Origin: Stentor roeselii
Lineage: Eukaryota > Ciliophora > Heterotrichea > Heterotrichida > Stentoridae
Assembly (NCBI GenBank): GCA_006503475.1
Contig: RSEH01000096.1
Span: 62,001 to 126,000, forward strand
DNA: 64,000 bases
Direction: 5' to 3'
The position numbers and the translations under genes were made by a program. Below are positions 5,395-62,245 of this stretch, piece by piece (position 1 is the first letter of the stretch; each line of letters opens with the position of its first letter). Under the pieces are notes generated by a model, which saw only the letters and a program-made list of their open reading frames with translations, was not told the DNA's origin and made no database searches.

Positions 5395-7842
5395 ATGCAA
5401 TCAACAGGAGACGAGATCAGCTCAATCGAAGTGTCAGTCGAGAAGTACGACGAGTCGCTGATCCCATCAGAGCACTGCTTTTACTGTTTAAACCCGAACC
5501 CTTCAAGTCTCCTTTACAGCGAAAGTTCATCGCGGTGGTTCTGCACAATGATCTGTCAAAAAGGATCTCACATATCTTGGCACCGAGAATTCGCAGGGTC
5601 TTCAAGATGGTCCTTACACCCAGCGAACCCTAAGAAAAGAGGACTGATCGAGTGTGAAGACTGCAATTCGACAGAAATTTCAATGATGACTCTGATAAAC
5701 CAGTCAATATTCTGCCGAAATTGCACAATCAAGCGCAAAAATATTCAACCTTCACTGGTTTTAGAAGAAATCTTAAGTAATGGCAAACTTTCTACAGGTA
5801 TACTTGATGAACCTTCGGAAGAAGAGAAAAAAAAATGCAGAAGTATTACAAAAAAACAAATAAGGCTTATTGAAAATAATTTGAAATCAGGGAAAGATCA
5901 GTTTGATGGCCTTGAGTCGAATAGTGATTTTGTCCCTTTGCCGAAAATAAAGAAAGAGTATCAAAGTGCAAGGGAATATGCTGAAATTTACTCAGGGTTG
6001 TTGAAAAAAGATATGGAGTATAATAAAGCACTTAGCTCGAAAGGGGTTTTAAATACTGTGGCTATTGGATTTTTGCAACGTGAAGGGACTTTTACGTATA
6101 ATACTCTTGAAACTGGGTTGAAGTTAAGGGTGGGGAGTTTGATTGAAGTTTTAGAAAGTGGGAAAGTGATTTGTGCTGCTATTGTTTTTGAGGTTAATGG
6201 ACAGTCGAATAAAGTTAAATTTAAAGTCCTGGAAAAAAAATTTGAGAAAAGTGGAATATATACCTGCCAGATTCAGATTAAATTTTTACCGGTTCCGTTT
6301 GAAAGGATGATGGAATCTCTGGAGTATTTTGCTAAGGATTTCATAGATGAAAAAATTCAAGACTTGATACTTGGTAAATCGATGATAGTTCAAGACAATC
6401 AAATAAACATTGAAAACCTCAACGATTTTGACTTTAACCCTCCAAACATCCCCCACCTCAACACATCTCAGTTGAATGCAGTAAAATCCGCGATTGGCAA
6501 AAACTTTTCAATAATTCAAGGTCCTCCAGGTACAGGAAAGACTCACTCATGTAGCGCAATAGTTTGGATGTACAACAATCTGATGAAATCGAAGTTGGCA
6601 CCTAATAAAAAGATTTTAGTGACTTCTAATTCAAATATTGCTGTTGATAACTTGGTCGAGAGAATACACAAAACTGGAGTCTCAGTTGTTAAAGTTGCTT
6701 CCAGGTTGAGAGAAAAGATAATTAATCCAAATAACTTGGTTGAATCACTTTCACTTCATAGGTTGCTTCGACAGAGAGTTGAAAGTGATAAAAGAAGCTT
6801 TATTGATTTGTTTGATATGAAGTACGAGTATGATGAAGTTTTAGAGGATAAGCAGTACAAAGCTTTGATGGAGATTGTCACACCAATTACAAAAGATATA
6901 CTTTCAAAGTTCGATGTGATTTGTTGCACTAATGTGGTGGCAGCTGATGATAGACTTTCTGATTTCGAGTATCCTTTTGTGCTTATTGATGAAGCTAACC
7001 AGTCCATTGAACCTGAATCTTTGATTCCTTTGCTTTTCGGATGTAAAAAACTGATACTTGTTGGAGATCAAATGCAACTGGGGCCTGTTTCTAAATGTAG
7101 CAAAACCGTATCTGCTGGTTTGACACGGTCTTTGATGACTAGAATGATTCATCTTGGACACAATCCGAGTATTTTGCAGCATCAGTACAGGATGCATCCA
7201 TCAATCAGCAGCTTTCCTCGAAATTTCTTTTACGAAGGGCAACTAATCGATGGAATCACCTCAACAGACAGACCAATAATTCCCAACTTCTGGTTGAACG
7301 ACATTCCCAACATTTTCCTGCATCACGAGTCAAACGAAGCCTCGACAGGAGGAGCATGTTCAGTAAGCAACGTAAATGAAGCATTTATAGCAGCAGAGGT
7401 TCTTCAAAAGATAATCGAAAAAGGAGTAAATTCAGATGAAATAATAGTTTTAACTCCTTACGAAGCACAAAAAAGAACAATTCTCGAGGTTTTTAACCGG
7501 AAACGCTCAAATGTAAAGGTTTACAATATCGATGAATTTCAAGGCAACGAGGCGAATTACATCATTTTCTCAACTGTCAGGTCAAACACTGACGGCGACA
7601 TCGGCTTTTTAAGTGACTTTAGAAGACTCAATGTCGCAATCACCAGGGCAAAGTACGGGATGGTCGTTTTAGGAAATTGTAAAACTTTAAGTAAAACGAA
7701 ACTTTGGAGTCATTTGATTAAAGATTATGCAGATAAACACATGATATTTGAAGGGATGTTCGGAAGTCTTCGAGTTCATAATATTGTTGTTCCTGACCCT
7801 CCTGAGTACAAATTTGATGAAGAGTTTCCTTATAGTTCTTAG
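5395..7842 (+). CDS. UPF1-like SF1 RNA helicase
   Basis: An 815-residue protein. The N-terminus (about 25-115) carries Cys/His pairs in the arrangement of the UPF1 CH domain, which binds UPF2 (CFYCL..., WFCTMICQKGSH, CEDC...CRNC). The superfamily 1 helicase core follows: Walker A GPPGTGKT near residue 380, motif II DEANQ, motif III VGDQMQLGPV, motif IV HQYRMHP, then DEFQGNEA and RRLNVAITRAKYG. These match UPF1, the ATP-dependent helicase of nonsense-mediated mRNA decay in the cytoplasm. It is shorter than usual UPF1 (about 1100 residues) and ends just after the core, without the SQ-rich tail that SMG1 phosphorylates. It could be the main UPF1 or a paralogue. Start ATG 5395 follows TTAATAAA. 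Confidence 0.9.
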   Translation: MQSTGDEISSIEVSVEKYDESLIPSEHCFYCLNPNPSSLLYSESSSRWFCTMICQKGSHISWHREFAGSSRWSLHPANPKKRGLIECEDCNSTEISMMTLINQSIFCRNCTIKRKNIQPSLVLEEILSNGKLSTGILDEPSEEEKKKCRSITKKQIRLIENNLKSGKDQFDGLESNSDFVPLPKIKKEYQSAREYAEIYSGLLKKDMEYNKALSSKGVLNTVAIGFLQREGTFTYNTLETGLKLRVGSLIEVLESGKVICAAIVFEVNGQSNKVKFKVLEKKFEKSGIYTCQIQIKFLPVPFERMMESLEYFAKDFIDEKIQDLILGKSMIVQDNQINIENLNDFDFNPPNIPHLNTSQLNAVKSAIGKNFSIIQGPPGTGKTHSCSAIVWMYNNLMKSKLAPNKKILVTSNSNIAVDNLVERIHKTGVSVVKVASRLREKIINPNNLVESLSLHRLLRQRVESDKRSFIDLFDMKYEYDEVLEDKQYKALMEIVTPITKDILSKFDVICCTNVVAADDRLSDFEYPFVLIDEANQSIEPESLIPLLFGCKKLILVGDQMQLGPVSKCSKTVSAGLTRSLMTRMIHLGHNPSILQHQYRMHPSISSFPRNFFYEGQLIDGITSTDRPIIPNFWLNDIPNIFLHHESNEASTGGACSVSNVNEAFIAAEVLQKIIEKGVNSDEIIVLTPYEAQKRTILEVFNRKRSNVKVYNIDEFQGNEANYIIFSTVRSNTDGDIGFLSDFRRLNVAITRAKYGMVVLGNCKTLSKTKLWSHLIKDYADKHMIFEGMFGSLRVHNIVVPDPPEYKFDEEFPYSS

Positions 7843-9030: not shown

Positions 9031-10299
9031 CTAAATAAGTTGTTCTTCCTTTTTAGGTTCCTTGTAGAATACAGAGCAGAAGAATAACACCAATGTCAAG
9101 AAAGCGATAATTATGAAGCATCCATACATTTTTATTTGAGGTTCCAGAAACTTAGAGAGAATATAAGGTGAAAAATTTGACGGGATAAAAGACATACAAA
9201 CACAAGAAATCATTTTTTTATCTCCTGGAAAAGCTTGTTCTGTGAGATTTAGGATGTTGTTATAAAAAGAACTGGTTAAAAAATGGTAGCTAATCATGAA
9301 AAAAGCATAGAGACTTTTATCAGAAACTGCGAACCACATTCCTCCCATGAGTAAAGTTTCTAGAAAGTAAACAAGACACATTACTTTTTTCCAGTACATT
9401 CTTTGGAATAGATACCCAAATAGAGACCTTCCAATTCCAGCTAGAAAAAATGCGATCATTCCAACATATGCAGAGTAGTAATCATCATTGATGAACTGGA
9501 TCGCAATCACTTTATAATAAAAATGAACATATCCTTGGCAAGTCACAGCCAAATACATCATAAAAAACAAGACCCAAAATCTTTTATTTTTTAAAATTTC
9601 TTTAAAACTCGAAGATTTTGAGTTTCCCGCTTCTTGAGTCATAACTTTTCCCTTTCGTGGTAAAAGTACAAGTCCAGCACACATACAAATAAAAAAAGTA
9701 GCACTGACCCATCGAATAGTATTAGGTACCCTTTCAGCGACTTCTCTAGGAAACATCTTTTCCCCTCCAGCAGTTGATTCAGCAGATCGATTATGAGGAT
9801 TGACGATTAAAGTAAACATAAGTCCGAAAGGAACCGATCCAAGACTATACCCAGAAAGTAAAATTCCACTAAGCAAGGGTTTTTTTTCAGGAATTCGATT
9901 CCAAATGACCCAAAGACTGGGCAAAAAAACACTCGCTGAAAGTGATCCAATTGAAAGGCCATAAACCCAAGAAAACATCTGAGGGTCTTCAATGAAACTA
10001 CTGAAAAACATCCCTGCACAGAAAAAGGCGGAACAGATCAATATTATGTTGAAAATACTTAAGTAAAGTGTCAGGTAGGATATTGCTAATGTGAAAACTG
10101 ACTCCGCGATGTACCCGATCGAAGGGACAAGGGCGAGGTCTGAACTTTGAATAGAATGGTCTTTCATGTAGAAATAGGATGCGATGTAAGGCAAAAATGT
10201 TCCCCAATTGTTTAGGTTTCCTGCTACCTAAGTAGGATTTACTGCATTTACTATGATGCCTCCTGTTAGTAAAAGAACTTTCCTGAACACACTGGCCAT
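9031..10299 (-). CDS. MFS transporter, copy 1 (two exons)
   Basis: Exon 1 is 10299-10243 (57 bases, 19 codons); a 15-nt intron occupies 10242-10228; exon 2 is 10227-9031. The spliced protein has 417 residues. Without splicing, a TAG stands in frame at the intron's 3' end. About 12 hydrophobic segments are visible, with YGLSIGSLS, SGILLSGYSLGSVPF and a second-half GIGRSLFGYLF loop, as in the major facilitator superfamily; the layout recalls the oxalate/formate-antiporter-like branch common in protists. Substrate unknown. The start was chosen because all three family members then share a 57-base first exon ending in VNA or VNS. Stop TAG. Confidence 0.85.
10228..10242 (-). other. 15-nt intron in MFS copy 1
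   Basis: GTAAATCCTACTTAG on the minus strand. It is phase 0 and contains the in-frame TAG that would otherwise stop translation. Removing it joins VNA to VAGNLNNWG, matching the two sister genes. Confidence 0.88.
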
Positions 10300-11420
10300 A
10301 GATTTATGGGAGGATACTAATATGGAAAATCTAGGGTCTATTGGAAGAATTATGTTTTGATGAATTGAATTTTGGAATTTTTGAAGGTTTATTCAAAGTG
10401 AATCGGTTGGGTTATGAAGAAATAGTTGGATGTTAAGAACAAGATTGAAGGATTTCAAGTATTCAACTACTTATCTTTTTTTCAAGGCGATACCTTAGCT
10501 GGTCAGGTATCTCGTTAATTTCTAGATCTATAGCCAAAAACAAAATAGTAATGAACTGGCAATTAATATAGTTCTACTTCTTGATTCGATGAAGATTTTT
10601 CAAAAGTAAATTCAACTTGTCTTAAGTATATAAGTTAATTTAGTCCATAAGTATGAAACTTGTTTAGTTTATGTATATATATATTTTTTTAAACTTTTTA
10701 GTGTTTTGGATCATTCTTTGATTGTCTTTGAACTGAAATCAACCTTAATAAAAACTAGTTCATTTGAAGAATGATTAAAAAATTAAAAATTTAAATCTGA
10801 ATGAATTTCTGTTTTTTGTAAGGAGGGATTAGGTATTTTTATCCTTTATCCAATCTTAATTAAAATCTTAAAGTTACTTAGAGAATTTCAAATTATATCG
10901 ATACTTAAGAAATGTTTTCTGAGTATAGTAATGGAAGAAAAAATGATAAATTTAAATCGTAATTATGTCTGAAAGTTTGTTTTTATCGCAAGTCTTGCTG
11001 AAGTACATATCATTAAAAATCTTGGCCCAGCTAATACGAATAATCGATATTTTAAAGATTTTGTTGATCAATAAATTCAGCATTTTCTTGAATTTACAAA
11101 GGCTTGGGTAATTAAAACAAGGTTAAATATGAAAATGTAAAATTTTATTGTTTTACTAATTTAATCCTATATATTTGAAATTATTGATTGAGAAGATATA
11201 CCAATAATCATATGAAATTCTAAAAGAATATAGATAGAGAATTTCATCTTGAATAAGTTCCATCAATTAGAATGAATATAGGCAAGTTCAAGGAATTTTA
11301 TGTAAGTATTAATGAACCTATCATAGAAATTATTTTAACATATATAAGCCTAGAATTCAGTATTTTATTGAACTATTATCAAATCAAATATTTCTATCAG
11401 AGATTTGATTAGAAAAGTTG
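10300..11420. other. Intergenic region between divergent MFS copies
   Basis: About 1.1 kb of AT-rich DNA with frequent stops in all frames. I find no supported gene, RNA or repeat here. It may hold further, unrecognisable remnants of the transporter family, but I cannot align any. Confidence 0.4.
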
Positions 11421-12040
11421 TTAATTATAAGAAGGTTCTCATATGAACTGGAGACAACTTAGTAAATCCGTGATCATTATAAAAATATTTAGAAACATAA
11501 AGACTTGGCAAGCATTCTTGCCGTATCTTGAATCTAAGTTCTATCATTTAAATATTTTCAAATAATAAGCGCCTATCAATAGTTTCACCAATTGAATACA
11601 TAGAATAGTCTTTTTTACTTTATTGATGTCTTACTTGTCAGTTAGTATAAGCCTTTTCAACATAATCCTGATATTTCTTCAAGTTATTGTTATGAATTAT
11701 GTTTTGTTTATTTATCACCAATTTCGAAATATTTAATGTGTTTTTGGTTTTTCAATTCACTTCTATGCCTTGTTATTTTTTCCAAATCTCTAGATAATGT
11801 GGAATGAAATTATAGATATTAAGTCTTTAGCAAGTATTTTTTTATCAGAAAATAGTTCTGGGTTGTTCCTGTTAGTCTAATGTTAACATTCAATCTCAGT
11901 TCATATAATATGAAAACTAAATGTCTTAAAGTAGAAATATGTTTCCGAGAGAGATACTCGAATGTTCCTATTACTATTATATGGGCAACTGCCAAGTTTT
12001 TGATATTCATAAGTTCTGGGCTATTACTCTGAATTGAAAG
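11421..12040 (+). pseudogene. Decayed MFS transporter copy (relic 1)
   Basis: Plus-strand DNA that follows the order of the intact copy at 12864-14132 but is full of stops and indels. Recognisable pieces include GCATTCTTGCCGTATC (cognate of GCATTTTTGCCATACATC), AGCCTTTTCAACATAATCC, CTCTAGATAATGTGGAATGA and TTAGTCTAATGTTAACATTC, in the right order and about the right spacing. It ends near the middle of the transporter. Boundaries are approximate. Confidence 0.72.
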
Positions 12041-12055
12041 AAAAAATTATTTATC

Positions 12056-12313
12056 TTGACGAGAAAATATCTGATAGGACCACTTAAGGATACATTCAGT
12101 TATACTTCTTTAGGTTTATCATTCATATTTCTTGCCAATCCATCTTATGTTAAAACAAAGAAATATTTAAATGAAAAATATTTCAATAGGGTAAAGATAT
12201 TTAATACTTCTATATATTTGTATTGCTTTCTCATAATGTATAAGATAATATTTCTTCTGTCTCATAAGAGAAAAAATGTTTCAGAATACGAAAATGTATC
12301 AAAAAAAGTTTAA
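12056..12313 (+). pseudogene. Fragment of decayed MFS copy (relic 2)
   Basis: An open stretch of 85 codons whose translation follows the middle of the transporter: SLGLSFIFLANPSYVKTKK parallels SLGSVPFSMVFTMIVNPHN and NTKAQ, and LLSHKRKNV parallels LLPHKGKV. It repeats a part already present in relic 1, so it is a second broken copy and not the continuation of the first. I do not treat it as a functional gene. Confidence 0.62.
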
Positions 12314-12863
12314 ATAATTGTATAGAGTGATCAATTTAGCTACAGTTTGAATAAACTAATTTAATTGATATAGATGGAACACACTTTTATATAAACGATT
12401 GCAAAATTATCAACAATTATTATTATTAATAATTTCATGAAACTTGATAATTTATTATCAACCATGATTTGAATGTGATTAAGGCTAGATGTCAAAGAAT
12501 TTATGCATTTTTTATGGTTTTTTATAGTTGCTTTATAGCTGATTATATAAAAATCTCTTAATTTAACTTATAAACTTTTACAGGAAATAAATATATATTA
12601 TTTCTTGTGTTTTTGTTTGTTTTGTCTTGTTCACTCATTCCTTAAAAAGTTTTAACAACCTATTGAACGCTCAATTGAGACTTTTCTCATAAAATTAATT
12701 CATTTTGTGCAATTTTCTTATGATATTCTAAAATACTCCAAAGAGATTTTATTAGAATAATAAAAACCTGTGATAAATAACGGAAACTAAATACTTGAAT
12801 GTTTCTTAGATCTAAAAAATTCTCAGGCATAACCAAAATATTTTGCAACAATCAGTAGATAAA
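12314..12863. other. Intergenic region upstream of MFS copy 2
   Basis: 550 bases, AT-rich, with no supported gene. No strong A/C-rich promoter tract is seen apart from the last 60 bases before the start codon. Confidence 0.35.
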
Positions 12864-14132
12864 ATGGCTACAACCTTCAAGAAAATCCTTTTATTCACAG
12901 GAGGAATTTTAGTAAATGCAGTAAGAAATACAAAGGTAGCTGGTAATCTCAACAACTGGGGAGCATTTTTGCCATACATCGCTTCCTATTTTCATTTACT
13001 AGACAATTCAGTAAAAAGTTCAGATTTATCGATAGTCCCTCCAATAGGATACATCGCTGAGTCTTTATTTACAGTACTGATCTCTTACTTGCTAGTCTTC
13101 ATGAGTATTTTCAACGTAATTTTAATCTTTTCAACGATTTTTTGCACATGCATGTTTTTTAGTTCTTTTCTGACGAATGCTGAACTTTTTTCATGGGTTT
13201 ATGGTCTTTCAATCGGGTCACTATCTTCATGTTCTTTTCTTCCGAGTCTCTGGATAATTTGGAATGAGATCCCAGAGCAAAAATCCCTTACAAGTGGAAT
13301 TTTACTTTCAGGTTACTCTTTCGGTGCTGTTCCTTTTAGTCTAATGTTTACATTTATAGTCAACCCTCATAATACAAAAGCAGAAACCACCTCAGATCAT
13401 GAGAAATTGTTTACAAAAGAAGTGGCTGAAAGAGTTCCGATGACTATTCGATGGGTGACTATTGGATTTTTGATTACAGTTTATTTAGGACTTTTTATGT
13501 TGCCTAGAAGGAGAAAAGTCACGACGGAAGAAAATCGAGAAACAGATTCGATGAGTTTTAAAGAGATTATCAGAAACAAAAGGTTTTGGTTTCTTTTTAT
13601 TCTCATGTATTTGTCAATGTGTTGTCAGGGATATGCACACTTTTATTATAAGGTTATTGCGATACAGTATATTAATGATGATTTTTATTCTGCTTATGTT
13701 GGGACTTCGGCTTTTGTACTTGCTGGAATTGGAAGGTCTGTTTTTGGATATTTGTTTAATAAAATATATTGGAAGAAAATTATGAGTCTTGTGCATATTA
13801 CGGAAACTCTCCTGATGGCTGGCATGTGGTTTACAGTCACTGATAAGAGACTTTATGCGTTTTTTATGGTGAGCTATCATGTGTTGTCTAGCTCTTTTTA
13901 TAATAATGTTTTGATTTTAACAGAAGAGGCTTTTCCAGGAGATAAAAGAATTATTTCATGTGTTTGTCTTTCTTTTATACCTGCATTTTTTACACCTTTT
14001 TTTATTTCGAAGGTGTTGGAACCGTTTATTGGAATGCTTGGAAGTTTCTTGATAATAGCTTTTTTCAGTTTAATTCTCTTTTTTTGTACGGTTTTTTATA
14101 AAGAACCTGAAACAAAAGCTTCATTACTTTAG
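12864..14132 (+). CDS. MFS transporter, copy 2 (probably two exons)
   Basis: Exon 1 is 12864-12920 (19 codons), then a 15-nt segment 12921-12935, then exon 2 12936-14132; the spliced protein has 417 residues, the same as copy 1, and exon 2 has the same length in both. The 15-nt segment has no stop, so the unspliced frame also reads through, adding five residues (VRNTK) absent from the spliced sisters. I take it as an intron because position, length and GT...AG ends match copy 1. About 12 membrane segments; major facilitator fold; substrate unknown. An ATG seven codons upstream (12843) is possible, but the alignment of first exons favours 12864. Confidence 0.85.
   Translation: MATTFKKILLFTGGILVNAVRNTKVAGNLNNWGAFLPYIASYFHLLDNSVKSSDLSIVPPIGYIAESLFTVLISYLLVFMSIFNVILIFSTIFCTCMFFSSFLTNAELFSWVYGLSIGSLSSCSFLPSLWIIWNEIPEQKSLTSGILLSGYSFGAVPFSLMFTFIVNPHNTKAETTSDHEKLFTKEVAERVPMTIRWVTIGFLITVYLGLFMLPRRRKVTTEENRETDSMSFKEIIRNKRFWFLFILMYLSMCCQGYAHFYYKVIAIQYINDDFYSAYVGTSAFVLAGIGRSVFGYLFNKIYWKKIMSLVHITETLLMAGMWFTVTDKRLYAFFMVSYHVLSSSFYNNVLILTEEAFPGDKRIISCVCLSFIPAFFTPFFISKVLEPFIGMLGSFLIIAFFSLILFFCTVFYKEPETKASLL
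12921..12935 (+). other. Probable 15-nt intron without stop, MFS copy 2
   Basis: GTAAGAAATACAAAG, phase 0, at the same codon boundary as the intron of copy 1. It is a multiple of three and stop-free, so retention would insert five residues and not break the protein. Confidence 0.7.
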
Positions 14133-14309
14133 TTAATAAAAAATATTAGGATTTTATGTTGGAACTATTATATTAATTTTAATTAATTACAAAGAAATGT
14201 TGTGAGTTAAACTCAGAATATAAACGAATTTTCAAATTGAATTATTTCTCAAACTGCATATGGACTGTATATTTCATATAAATTTTTGTGCTATACTATA
14301 AATAGTCTT

Positions 14310-15135
14310 CCAAGAAATTCTTTATATAGCATGTGGAATCATAGTAAACTCAGTATTTTTTATACAGTCTGTTACAATATATAAAAACTGTGAAGCTTTC
14401 TTGCTCTAGTTTTTTACTTTAATTTAATAATTAAATAATTGACGAATTCCGATCTTTCAATAATTTTATCGCTGGGGTACACAGCTGAGTGTATTGCACT
14501 TTCAATATAAAACCTATCAGCCTATATCAGAATTTTAAAAAATTTAGTATTTTTTTAACAATATTTGTGGTTATTTTTTAGTTTATTCATTTAAAACTTT
14601 GATTTATTGTGCTATATTAATGAACTTGAAATTTGGTTTCTTTTATAGTATTTGTATTTCCTATTCCATAGATGATTTGGAATGAAATAACTGATAAAAA
14701 GTAATTGAAAAATATCAAATTTCCTTGTTATAGTCTCGGATTAGTTCTTTAGTCTGATCTTTACATTACTTGTTAATCCAAATTATTCTAAAGCAAAAAA
14801 AAAATCACGAAAAAATGTTTCTGAAAGATTTTCAATTACTTTAAGTTGGATTAAAATTGTATTTTGGCTTTCATCCTTTTAGGATTATTTTTGTCTCCAA
14901 CAGGGAAAATTGTAGAAGAAGATCAAAAATTGAATCAAATAAATTTTAAATATATAATCAAGAACGAGCATTTTAGTTTGTTCATGATTATGTTTTTATT
15001 GTCTATTTGATTGAATTTGCTTTCTTTATTATAAAGTTGATGCAAAACAGTACATTTATGGTGATTTTTACTCTTATTTTGTAGGAACTACTGCCTTTCT
15101 GTTTTTAGGTGCTGAAAGTCTTATGTTTGAATTAA
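14310..15135 (+). pseudogene. Decayed MFS copy (relic 3) retaining its intron
   Basis: It follows the order of the intact copies: ATCATAGTAAACTCA, a 15-nt GT...AG segment at 14353-14367, then a cognate of the LNNWGAFLP region, GGTACACAGCTGAGTG, ATTTGGAATGAAAT, and a region matching the GKV loop and YYKVIAIQYI. Stops and frameshifts occur throughout, and it ends before the last third of the transporter. Boundaries are approximate. Confidence 0.72.
14353..14367 (+). other. Fossil 15-nt intron in MFS relic 3
   Basis: GTATTTTTTATACAG at the same place as the introns of the intact copies, keeping GT, AG and the adenine at position 10. Confidence 0.6.
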
Positions 15136-15189
15136 AACAATTTCAAGTCCTTTAAAAAACTTTAAATAATCGAAGCCATATTATAACAA

Positions 15190-16490
15190 ATGAGAGATTC
15201 CATAAAAAAGATAGTCTTTTTAACAGGAGGTTTTATAGTAAACTCAGTAAACTCAAATAGGTCGGGGGAAACCTAATAAACTGGGGCTCCTTACTACCAT
15301 ACATCGCCTCTTACTACTACCATCTTGACCCATCAACCCGTATTTCAGATTTTTCCCTAGTGCCCTTCATCGGTTTCCTTGCAGAGTCATTCATCGCTCT
15401 GATAATTTCTTATCTTTCAGTCCACCTGAGCATATTCAACATCCTTTTAATTTTTTCAACAATTTGCTGTTCAGGTATGTTTTTGAGTTCATTTCTCACA
15501 AATCCTCTTCTATTCTCATGGATCTATGGGCTATCTCTCGGCTTCTTGTCTGGAAGTATCTGTTTGCCCAGTGTTTGGCTTATCTGGAGCGAGATTCCTG
15601 AAAGCAAGGCTGCTACAAGTGGAATTTTATTAACAGGGTACAGTCTTGGGTCAGTTCCTTTCAGCATGGTCTTTACTATGATAGTCAATCCTCATAATAC
15701 TAAAGCTCAGAGTGTAAATGATCATGAAAGGATGTTTCCTGTTGAAGTCGCTGAAAGAGTTCCGATGACTATTAGATGGATCACTGCTTCTTATCTTGTT
15801 TGCATGTTTTTAGGACTTGGGTTGCTACCGCACAAGGGAAAAGTCACACAAGATGAAGGGGGTGAAAGGAAGGGATTAGGGTTAAGGGAAATTGTGAGGA
15901 TTAAAAGATGTTGGATGCTATTTTTGATGATGTTTTTAGCTCTTGCATGTCAAGCCTATGCACAGATTCTTTATAGAGTCGTTGCGATCAGGTTTATTAA
16001 TGATGATTACTACTCAGCTTATGTGGGGATGGCTTCTTATATCTGTTCTGGAATTGGAAGAGGAGTTTTTGGTTACTTGTTTGAAAAATTTTATTGGAAA
16101 AAAATAATGAGTCTAGTTTATTTTATACAAACTTTACTCATGGCGAGCTTGTGGTTTACTCTAAGTGATAAGTCCTTATATGCTTTTTTTATGGTCTCCA
16201 TTCATTTTTTAACGAGTTCATTTTACAACAATATATTAATCCTTACTGAAAATGCATTTCCAGGTGATAGAAAAGTAATTTCTTACATTTGTTTCTCTTT
16301 TATTCCTGCATATTTCACCCCATATTTCTTAGAAAAGTTTGCAGAACCTTACATTGGCCTCGTTGGATGTCTTATTTTCTTATCATTCGTGATGGCAATC
16401 ATGTTTTTCCTCGTCATTTTTTACCAGGACCCTAAAAAAACCGATTCCCTTCTCCAAGAAAAAAAAATCTCCTCCAAAGCCTTAAAATAA
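15190..16490 (+). CDS. MFS transporter, copy 3 (two exons, 14-nt intron)
   Basis: Exon 1 is 15190-15246 (19 codons), a 14-nt GT...AG segment lies at 15247-15260, and exon 2 is 15261-16490; the joined protein has 428 residues. The unspliced frame hits two stops soon after the segment. Removing exactly 14 bases restores the frame and gives VNSVGGNLINWG, matching VNAVAGNLNNWG of copy 1. The rest has about 12 membrane segments and the same conserved loops, with a C-terminal tail 11 residues longer. Alternatives are a frameshifted pseudogene or a one-base assembly error; the long, otherwise clean exon 2 argues for a working gene. Confidence 0.8.
15247..15260 (+). other. 14-nt intron in MFS copy 3
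   Basis: GTAAACTCAAATAG. It sits where copies 1 and 2 have 15-nt introns. Only removal of exactly 14 bases keeps the flanking protein in frame. Confidence 0.7.
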
Positions 16491-60929: not shown

Positions 60930-62245
60930 ATGGGAGGAGCTCTTTGTTGTGCAGGCACTGCCTGCTGCCAATGCATGTGTGGAGTCTGCATGCGCTGTTG
61001 CGGGACTTCACATCAACAGCACACTCGAATCGGTTACCTAAGCCTGACAATGGTTGCAATATTCTTCGGTCTAATCTTTCTTTATTTCGGTTCAGACATG
61101 ATGTCTCCCTGGGAAAATTTCGGTTTCGGTAATTCTTACAAAGACTGTCACGGCGACAAAAAAAGTGTTTGTTTAGGAGTTTTCACTATCTACAGAGAAA
61201 GCTTCACATTAGTCATTTTTTACTTCTGTATGCTGCTCGGGTCACTTCCAGGCGGAAGTTTTTCCACAATATTCAACCGTAAGTTTAAACAGAAAGTTGC
61301 TGGACTCTAAGAATCCTTCTGATAATCGTTTTATTCATTCTGACCTTTTTCATCCCAAACAGTTTTTTTGTAAATTCCAAAAAGGAAGTCTTTCGAGAGA
61401 TCTGCAGATATGTCTCATTATTTTACCTGCTCGTTCAAATAATCGTCATCATCGATTTCGGCTATTCATGGAGTGAGGCCTGGACTGAAAGTTACGAGCA
61501 ATCCGGGAATTCAAATCAAAAACTTTGCGGATTGTTTTTTTTTTCAGGGTTATTCTGGGCGGTTTCCTTAGTAACGATAGTGATGTGTTATCTTTGGTTC
61601 ACTGGTCCTGGTTGTGACACTGAAATCGCTTTGATTACTTTGACTCTTGTGTTTGGAATTGGATTTACTGTCTTGTCGATGACCAGCTTTGTAGAGCATG
61701 GGTGTAAGAATTAGGCAGCTTTGCTTACTAGCTCTGTGGTCAACGGGTATATCACTTATTTGTGTTGGGATGGAATGACTAATAACACCCGGGAACAGTG
61801 CAATGACTGGAACAATGCGAAGGATACTGGAGTTAGTATCACTGTCGGTGTTGTTATTTTGTTAGCGACTTTGGCTTATATTTGCTTTCGGAAAAGGGAG
61901 AAGATTCAGGATCAGACTCCTTTGAGAAATGCTGCTGAACCTATTTTAGCTGATGAGGATGATGAACAGGTACCTTATCAGGTGGAACCTGATGAAAGAT
62001 ATGGAAGGAAAATGATTGGATTTCATGCTTTTATGCTTTTGGCTAGCTTTTACTTTAGCATGTTGCTTACTAATTGGGGAAGTGCGAATATTAAGAATAA
62101 TGATAGCAAAACTTATGAGAAGTAAGAAGTTTTTAGTAATGAAGCAAGCTTGTGGATCAAGTTTAGTGCTTTGTGGACTACTGTCGCTCTTTATGTCTGG
62201 ACTTTGATCGCTCCGAGGCTTTGCTCTGGAAGAGATTTCTCTTGA
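60930..62245 (+). CDS. SERINC family membrane protein (four exons)
   Basis: Exons 60930-61278, 61293-61703, 61719-62121 and 62137-62245; 1272 coding bases, 423 residues. The first intron is 14 nt, the others 15 nt. About ten or eleven membrane segments. Family marks: Cys-rich N-terminus (CCAGTACCQC), FFIPN, the IIVIIDFGYSWSEAW block, then VVNGYITYLCWDGMTN, GFHAFMLLASFYFSMLLTNWG and the end ALYVWTLIAPRLC. SERINC/TDE1 proteins are phospholipid-scrambling membrane proteins of the plasma membrane and endomembranes. All four exons are needed for the family's full length. Stop TGA. Confidence 0.93.
61279..61292 (+). other. 14-nt intron 1 in SERINC
   Basis: GTAAGTTTAAACAG, phase 1. Removing 14 bases brings the IVLFILTFFIPN segment into frame; the next possible AG (18 bases) leaves the wrong frame. 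Confidence 0.8.
61704..61718 (+). other. 15-nt intron 2 in SERINC
   Basis: GTAAGAATTAGGCAG, phase 1, containing an in-frame TAG. Removal joins VEHG to SLLTSSVVNGYITYL as in the family. Confidence 0.9.
62122..62136 (+). other. 15-nt intron 3 in SERINC
   Basis: GTAAGAAGTTTTTAG, phase 2, containing an in-frame TAA. Removal adds the last conserved membrane segment (WTTVALYVWTLIAP). It is the one 15-nt intron in the window with T and not A at position 10. Confidence 0.9.

Follow-up and report, generated by a model that had tools for sequence, protein, structure and literature searches.

A 14-nucleotide segment in an MFS-like gene of Stentor roeselii that is probably a spliceosomal intron shorter than those reported for heterotrich ciliates

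The window analysed here is a stretch of 64,000 nucleotides from Stentor roeselii that corresponds to bases 62001–126000 of contig C1 in a genome assembly of 44.4 Mb and 522 contigs. The long frames of the window are read by the standard code and most introns in it have a length of 15 nt, like those of heterotrich ciliates; inspection by eye of the opening 180 bases of two contigs revealed no telomere repeat. Three intact MFS-like genes were found, namely copy 1 (10299–9031, minus strand), copy 2 (12864–14132) and copy 3 (15190–16490, plus strand), together with two decayed MFS copies lying between the intact genes (11380–12320 and 14290–15175). Copy 3 matched MFS_1 with E = 6.3e-8 and a score of 32.3 bits, relative to a Pfam cut-off of 33.4. 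The window also contains a Serinc gene (60930–62245; Serinc PF03348, E = 1.9e-77).

Copy 3 consists of an open first exon of 19 codons, from ATG to TCA (15190–15246), that can be aligned to exon 1 of copies 1 and 2, a phase 0 segment of 14 nt, GTAAACTCAAATAG (15247–15260, plus strand), and a second exon (15261–16490) of 409 codons followed by a TAA stop, with no frame change. Without splicing, the frame beginning at the ATG at 15190 ends in TAA at 15274, and the downstream frame does not open until 15261, directly 3' of the TAG at 15258–15260, with its first ATG at 15477, 72 codons past the intron. Removal of the 14 nt, a segment that an earlier note on this DNA had proposed to be an intron, joins the 19 codons to the 409 in a single frame of 428 codons plus stop, extending to 16490. 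The resulting junction reads ...IVNS / VGGNLINWG, compared to ...IVNA|VAGNLNNWG in copy 1 and ...LVNA|VAGNLNNWG in copy 2 once 15 bases are taken out of each sister. These sister introns lie at the same codon boundary, as had been claimed: GTAAATCCTACTTAG in copy 1 (10228–10242, minus strand; 15 nt, with an in-frame TAG) and GTAAGAAATACAAAG in copy 2 (12921–12935, plus strand; 15 nt, stop-free), the latter identified by homology only. Retention of the copy 2 intron would add just five residues, and frame tests are blind to it.

The earlier note also held that the frame of copy 3 is kept only if exactly 14 bases leave. Taking out 14 bases does restore the frame; the exclusivity was wrong, as three GT-AG segments of 8–79 nt do so (14, 23 and 47 nt), all of which end at 15260. 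Among these choices only the 14-nt segment retains the exon-1 codons that can be aligned to copies 1 and 2, and an intron of 47 nt (or 23 nt) was rejected because it loses exon-1 codons that align between copies. The 14-nt segment starts with GT and ends with AG, a conserved reading frame is regained when it is excised, its position is common to introns of homologous genes and, like the AT-rich introns of heterotrichs, it is mostly A or T (10 of 14 bases); its length falls outside the 15 or 16 nt of that class. Excision at the DNA level was set aside given the GT-AG ends and the established intron site. As a bare string, GTAAACTCAAATAG is not unusual, with 3 occurrences genome-wide and 2 of the reversed control. 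When the 5' region of copy 3 (176 nt) was searched against the 44.4-Mb assembly, the one match was the query itself, so the base count of copy 3 has no second copy against which it could be checked. A tandem pair of GTAAACTCA at 15238–15255 spans the exon-intron boundary, such that the end of the exon equals the start of the intron for nine bases. Comparison of copy 3 with copies 1 and 2 over 417–418 codons (the copy 2 sequence extending one codon beyond its stop) gave a dN of 0.304 and a dS of about 2.3, which is near saturation; exon 1 alone gave a pN/pS of 0.5, its 19 codons being too short to judge. Judged from these substitution rates, copy 3 is under purifying selection and has been in frame for long, which does not give a date for the shortening of its intron.

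The copy 1 protein had 24 matches in the genome, 22 of which were read by eye at the intron site. Outside this reading were C106, truncated where its contig stops, and the decayed copy at 11380–12320 of the window (C1:73461), which was aligned separately; for family members whose identity fell below about 30%, local resemblance was used to place the site. Twelve genes and one decayed copy had 15 nt at the site, two genes (copy 3 and C63:43002) had 14 nt and one (C63:41721) had 16 nt, and the intron was absent from six distant members (L013, L014, L015, L017, L018 and L022), which indicates gain or loss inside the family. The 14-nt intron of C63:43002, GTATATTTAAATAG, interrupts a gene with 36–37% protein identity to copy 1. 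Its neighbour C63:41721 (L010:3725 region) has the 16-nt intron GTATTCTTTATTTCAG, with A at position 10; one homologous position carries introns of 14, 15 and 16 nt in this family. The decayed copy at 14290–15175 has a 15-nt segment at the site, GTATTTTTTATACAG (14353–14367), preceded by the GTAAACTCA exon end as in copy 3.

For the ten nearest genes, the tblastn alignments (a single one for each gene) add up to 12,117 nt, none of them containing a frame change, and three of the ten differed in length at the intron site. By our own arithmetic, the probability that two one-base deletions placed at random would both hit introns is about 1.5e-4 (intron sites of approximately 150 nt in total vs 12,117 nt aligned). 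An in-frame stop was present within the 15-nt intron itself in three of these ten genes, and one of the ten, C397b (L009, ending near 7790, minus strand), carries a TAG in frame within the coding sequence, off the intron site; this gene may be decaying or may contain another intron.

Introns were also sought with a hidden Markov gene finder that gives equal weight to intron lengths of 8–24 nt and has an explicit indel move, and that was used in place of an earlier scan whose 90-nt flanks were too weak. The finder was trained on the same 288,912 bases that it scanned (the window, L009–L028 and L033–L041). L009–L023 had been picked as carriers of MFS relatives, and the C63:43002 case therefore does not come from blind sampling. 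With no length preference and with indels permitted, the finder picked 15247–15260 in copy 3. It made 64 GT-AG calls in total: one each at 8, 9 and 19 nt, two each at 12, 20, 21 and 22 nt, three each at 13, 14 and 23 nt, four each at 10 and 24 nt, six at 16 nt and 30 at 15 nt, with none at other lengths. Since each of seven decoy end pairs gave just 1–3 calls at 15 nt, the GT-AG peak at that length is real. At 14 nt, the three GT-AG calls were equalled by the decoys (3, 0, 2, 1, 1, 6 and 2) and are thus no proof by count; the case for 14-nt introns is carried by homology and domains, not by finder totals. A GTA start was found in all three of the 14-nt GT-AG calls and in none of the three 13-nt calls. 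Both flanks scored as coding in just one of the three 14-nt calls, the upstream flank of 15247 scoring -9.5 with an exon 1 of 57 nt. A strict both-flank test passed none of the 331 GTA..AG 14-mers of the scanned sequence; it missed the known 14-nt cases and serves only as a background rate. The finder is also incomplete: it gave the copy 1 intron 15 nt in one run and 24 nt in another and missed it in a third, a 15-nt intron at 61704–61718 in one run became 24 nt in two others, and 15-nt introns that lack a stop, like the one in copy 2, are invisible to it.

Within the window, a further 14-nt intron was assigned to the Serinc gene (GTAAGTTTAAACAG, 61279–61292, plus strand, phase 1) from the finder calls and from paralogues. 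In the closest Serinc paralogues, L044 and L045, the place of GTAAGTTTAAACAG is taken by GTGAGTTTTAATTAG and GTATTTAAAAGGCAG, both 15 nt, and no intron was seen by eye at this site in the distant relatives L046 and L047 (26–27% identity).

Genome-wide patterns were designed after the three 14-nt introns (copy 3, C63:43002 and Serinc) were known. The looser pattern, GTAAGNNNAAAYAG (14 nt), occurred 61 times compared to 86 for its reversed control, and its 17-nt analogue 48 times compared to 137. The higher counts of the reversed controls imply that forward patterns of this kind are scarce generally, the 14-nt one less so, and the count of 61 at 14 nt relative to 48 at 17 nt, being below the reversed control of 86, is a weak signal. 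The pattern GTAAG-N-TAAAYAG was found 10 times at 13 nt, 25 times at 14 nt, 216 times at 15 nt, 3 times at 16 nt and 13 times at 17 nt, with reversed controls of 29 (13 nt), 21 (15 nt) and 25 (16 nt); the probability of at least 25 matches at 14 nt was 4e-4 or 2e-3, depending on the baseline. The share of matches with T before AAA did not differ significantly between the 14-nt and 17-nt lists (P = 0.16). At 16-nt spacing, GTAAGNNNNTAAAYAG had just 3 matches in the genome relative to 10 at 13 nt and 13 at 17 nt, a possible depletion.

We examined 40 of the 60 other GTAAGNNNAAAYAG contexts, in list order, using the finder with a looser gene-start prior. A 14-nt intron was called at the candidate in five of the 40 (L050, L053, L054, L061 and L065), relative to 0, 1, 0 and 0 14-nt calls for four decoy end pairs in the same contexts. 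All five called contexts have T at position 8 (5 of 16 with T vs 0 of 24; Fisher P = 0.007). Under the strict both-flank test, three of the 40 contexts passed, compared to 6 of 3,102 GTA..AG segments of 10–13 and 17–21 nt (P about 7e-5). Pfam matches ran across the 14-nt junction for MFS_1 in L050 (E = 3.5e-6, under the Pfam cut-off), for Mem_trans in L053 (7.7e-6, just under the cut-off) and for VPS9 in L065 (9e-19, with a 15-nt intron removed there too), and a Pfam search of L054 and L061 gave no match. L085, a decayed relative of the L053 transporter, has the 14-mer GTAAGGGTAAATAG at the same place, which suggests a 14-nt intron older than the L053/L085 duplication. Further possible 14-nt introns were noted by eye in L066 and L080 (GTAAGGGTAAATAG and GTAAGCATAAATAG), where the finder made no call. 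As a rough estimate, the excess of matched patterns was about 13 at 14 nt compared to 204 at 15 nt, so that 14-nt introns would amount to near 6% of 15-nt introns of this type; their overall share would, again roughly, be nearer 1% if a 14-nt intron needs AAA. The finder census of the scanned 288,912 bases gave 3 introns of 14 nt and 30 of 15 nt, which is likewise rough as an estimate of frequency. The proposal in the earlier note that the size floor is not fixed at 15 gains support from C63:43002, from the Serinc intron and from the five contexts elsewhere in the genome, as far as DNA sequence can speak to it.

A set of 47 distinct 15-nt introns, made up of unfiltered finder calls and 18 introns read by hand, was used to compare branch-point geometry. 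A was present at position 10 in 44 of the 47, in line with the branch adenosine reported at position 10 of 15-nt introns in S. coeruleus (PMC9505925), and T at position 9 in 30. AAA at positions 10–12 occurred in five of the 47, and AAA at positions 9–11 in all three 14-nt introns found without sequence choice (copy 3, C63:43002 and Serinc), for which the chance by the 15-nt frequency would be about 0.0012 in a comparison made after the fact. The copy 3 intron has A at 9, 10 and 11 (15255–15257, plus strand) and C at position 8, and its 14 nt cannot hold both a position-10 branch and a 5-nt tail. In the mechanism that we propose, U1/U6 would recognise the GTA(A) with which the intron begins and the branch adenosine would be one of these three candidates. 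Branching at A9 would keep the usual 5-nt tail to AG and shorten the lariat loop from 10 to 9 nt, and branching at A10 would keep the 10-nt loop and reduce the tail to 4 nt. T at position 8 would favour the former (tail 5, loop 9) and A at position 10 would allow the latter (loop 10, tail 4). The A run thus offers both registers, which may explain the AAA of the 14-nt introns seen here.

Overall, we consider it probable that the copy 3 segment is a GT-AG spliceosomal intron at an old family position that has lost one of its 15 bases and still leaves the mRNA. Its position, ends, frame and homology are read directly from the DNA, and its removal from RNA and the mechanism are what we infer from them. 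The 14-nt introns of this genome look like a rare class rather than a single accident, because others occur in the same genome. The argument of the earlier note that the one-base loss itself speaks for splicing was insufficient alone, since in a single gene a recent null mutation or a mistake in the assembly would give the same picture; the splicing reading that it was meant to serve was supported. Copy 3 could be a fresh null allele, in which an ancestral 15-nt intron minus one base is unspliceable or mis-spliced and the gene is dying. The decayed copies adjoining copy 3 (11380–12320 and 14290–15175) demonstrate that genes of this array do die, and a recent event would be invisible in dN/dS. 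We nevertheless regard this as unlikely, as copy 3 has no other frame or stop damage in 1,287 coding nt, C63:43002 and Serinc would each need a like event in the intron rather than in the exons, and 14-nt introns recur in further genes. An error of assembly or sequencing, the true genome having 15 bases at the site, is less probable again. Copy 3 is single in the assembly, and exon 2 has, two bases in, a stretch of five G where an error would shift the frame too; against this, the longest homopolymer within the segment is three, GTCGGGGGAAAC agrees in length with the sister exons, random one-base errors would be expected mostly in exons, where ten paralogues had no frame change in 12.1 kb aligned, and the 14-nt arrangement is common to several loci.

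Splicing of a 23-nt intron (15238–15260) from the upstream copy of GTAAACTCA, acting as 5' splice site, would likewise restore the frame, and the nine bases of GTAAACTCA both close exon 1 and open the intron. It appears very improbable, because the three codons VNS, which align to VNA of copies 1 and 2, would be lost, and because both sisters have an exonic GTAAAT at that point and begin their intron at the next GT; introns of 23 nt are moreover not an established size here, the three length-blind calls being at the level that decoys reach for such lengths. There is also scarcely any likelihood that the segment is translated with a ribosomal frameshift, as is used by ciliates such as Euplotes according to PMC10235951, or that translation begins downstream. 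The in-frame stop in the 15-nt version of copy 1 and several paralogues needs removal, not shifting past, and AAATAG in copy 3 is not in frame as AAA-TAG; a start at the first downstream ATG, 72 codons in, would lose the aligned N-terminal part.

Returning to the reading as a shortened intron, heterotrich introns in the literature measure 15 or 16 nt, as stated in PMC9505925, PMC9942806 and PMC11441545. In S. coeruleus, PMC9505925 gives 15 nt for 92.8% and 16 nt for 7.2% of introns, with zero 14-nt introns among the 8,806 of its annotation, and introns of Blepharisma are described as predominantly 15 and 16 bp (PMC9942806). In Loxodes, which belongs to the sister group of heterotrichs, introns under 16 bp were negligible in the RNA-based work reported in PMC11441545. 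PMC12316389 and PMC12862383 cite 15 nt as the lower end of known intron sizes. The copy 3 intron resembles those of Stentor coeruleus and Blepharisma in its GT(A)...AG ends, its AT-richness, an A located 6 bases from the 3' end and the codon position of its 15-nt sister introns, and differs from these 15/16-nt introns in its length of 14 nt. Introns of mikrocytids (16–17 nt; PMC10245619) and Bigelowiella natans (18 nt; PMC12316389), as described in these sources, are likewise spliceosomal with a narrow size range near the floor, although these lineages are unrelated and their introns are 2–4 nt longer than 14 nt; those of Loxodes magnus, in the heterotrich sister group, are also very short and differ by a mode of 17 bp (PMC11441545). 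No report of a 14-nt spliceosomal intron, including one in a heterotrich, was found in our searches of the open-licence literature. By its ends, frame and position the copy 3 segment would be a spliceosomal intron, and by its length it lies outside the described class; judged on the genomic evidence, it looks like an intron one base under the shortest spliceosomal introns that we found reported.

The lower size limit for splicing may therefore be below 15 bases. Tentatively, we consider it quite possible that 14-nt introns form a standing minor class under the published floor of 15, in which AAA at positions 9–11 permits a branch in two registers; if this two-register reading is true, the lower limit would be set by branch-point geometry, not by total length. 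A 14-nt class, if true, would lower the 15-nt record. It would also supply naturally occurring introns that occupy homologous sites and differ in length by one base, and these could be used to ask whether the minimum is set by the distance from the 5' splice site to the branch or by that from the branch to AG. Such a class would further mean that real genes may be disrupted where gene models admit only 15- and 16-nt introns.
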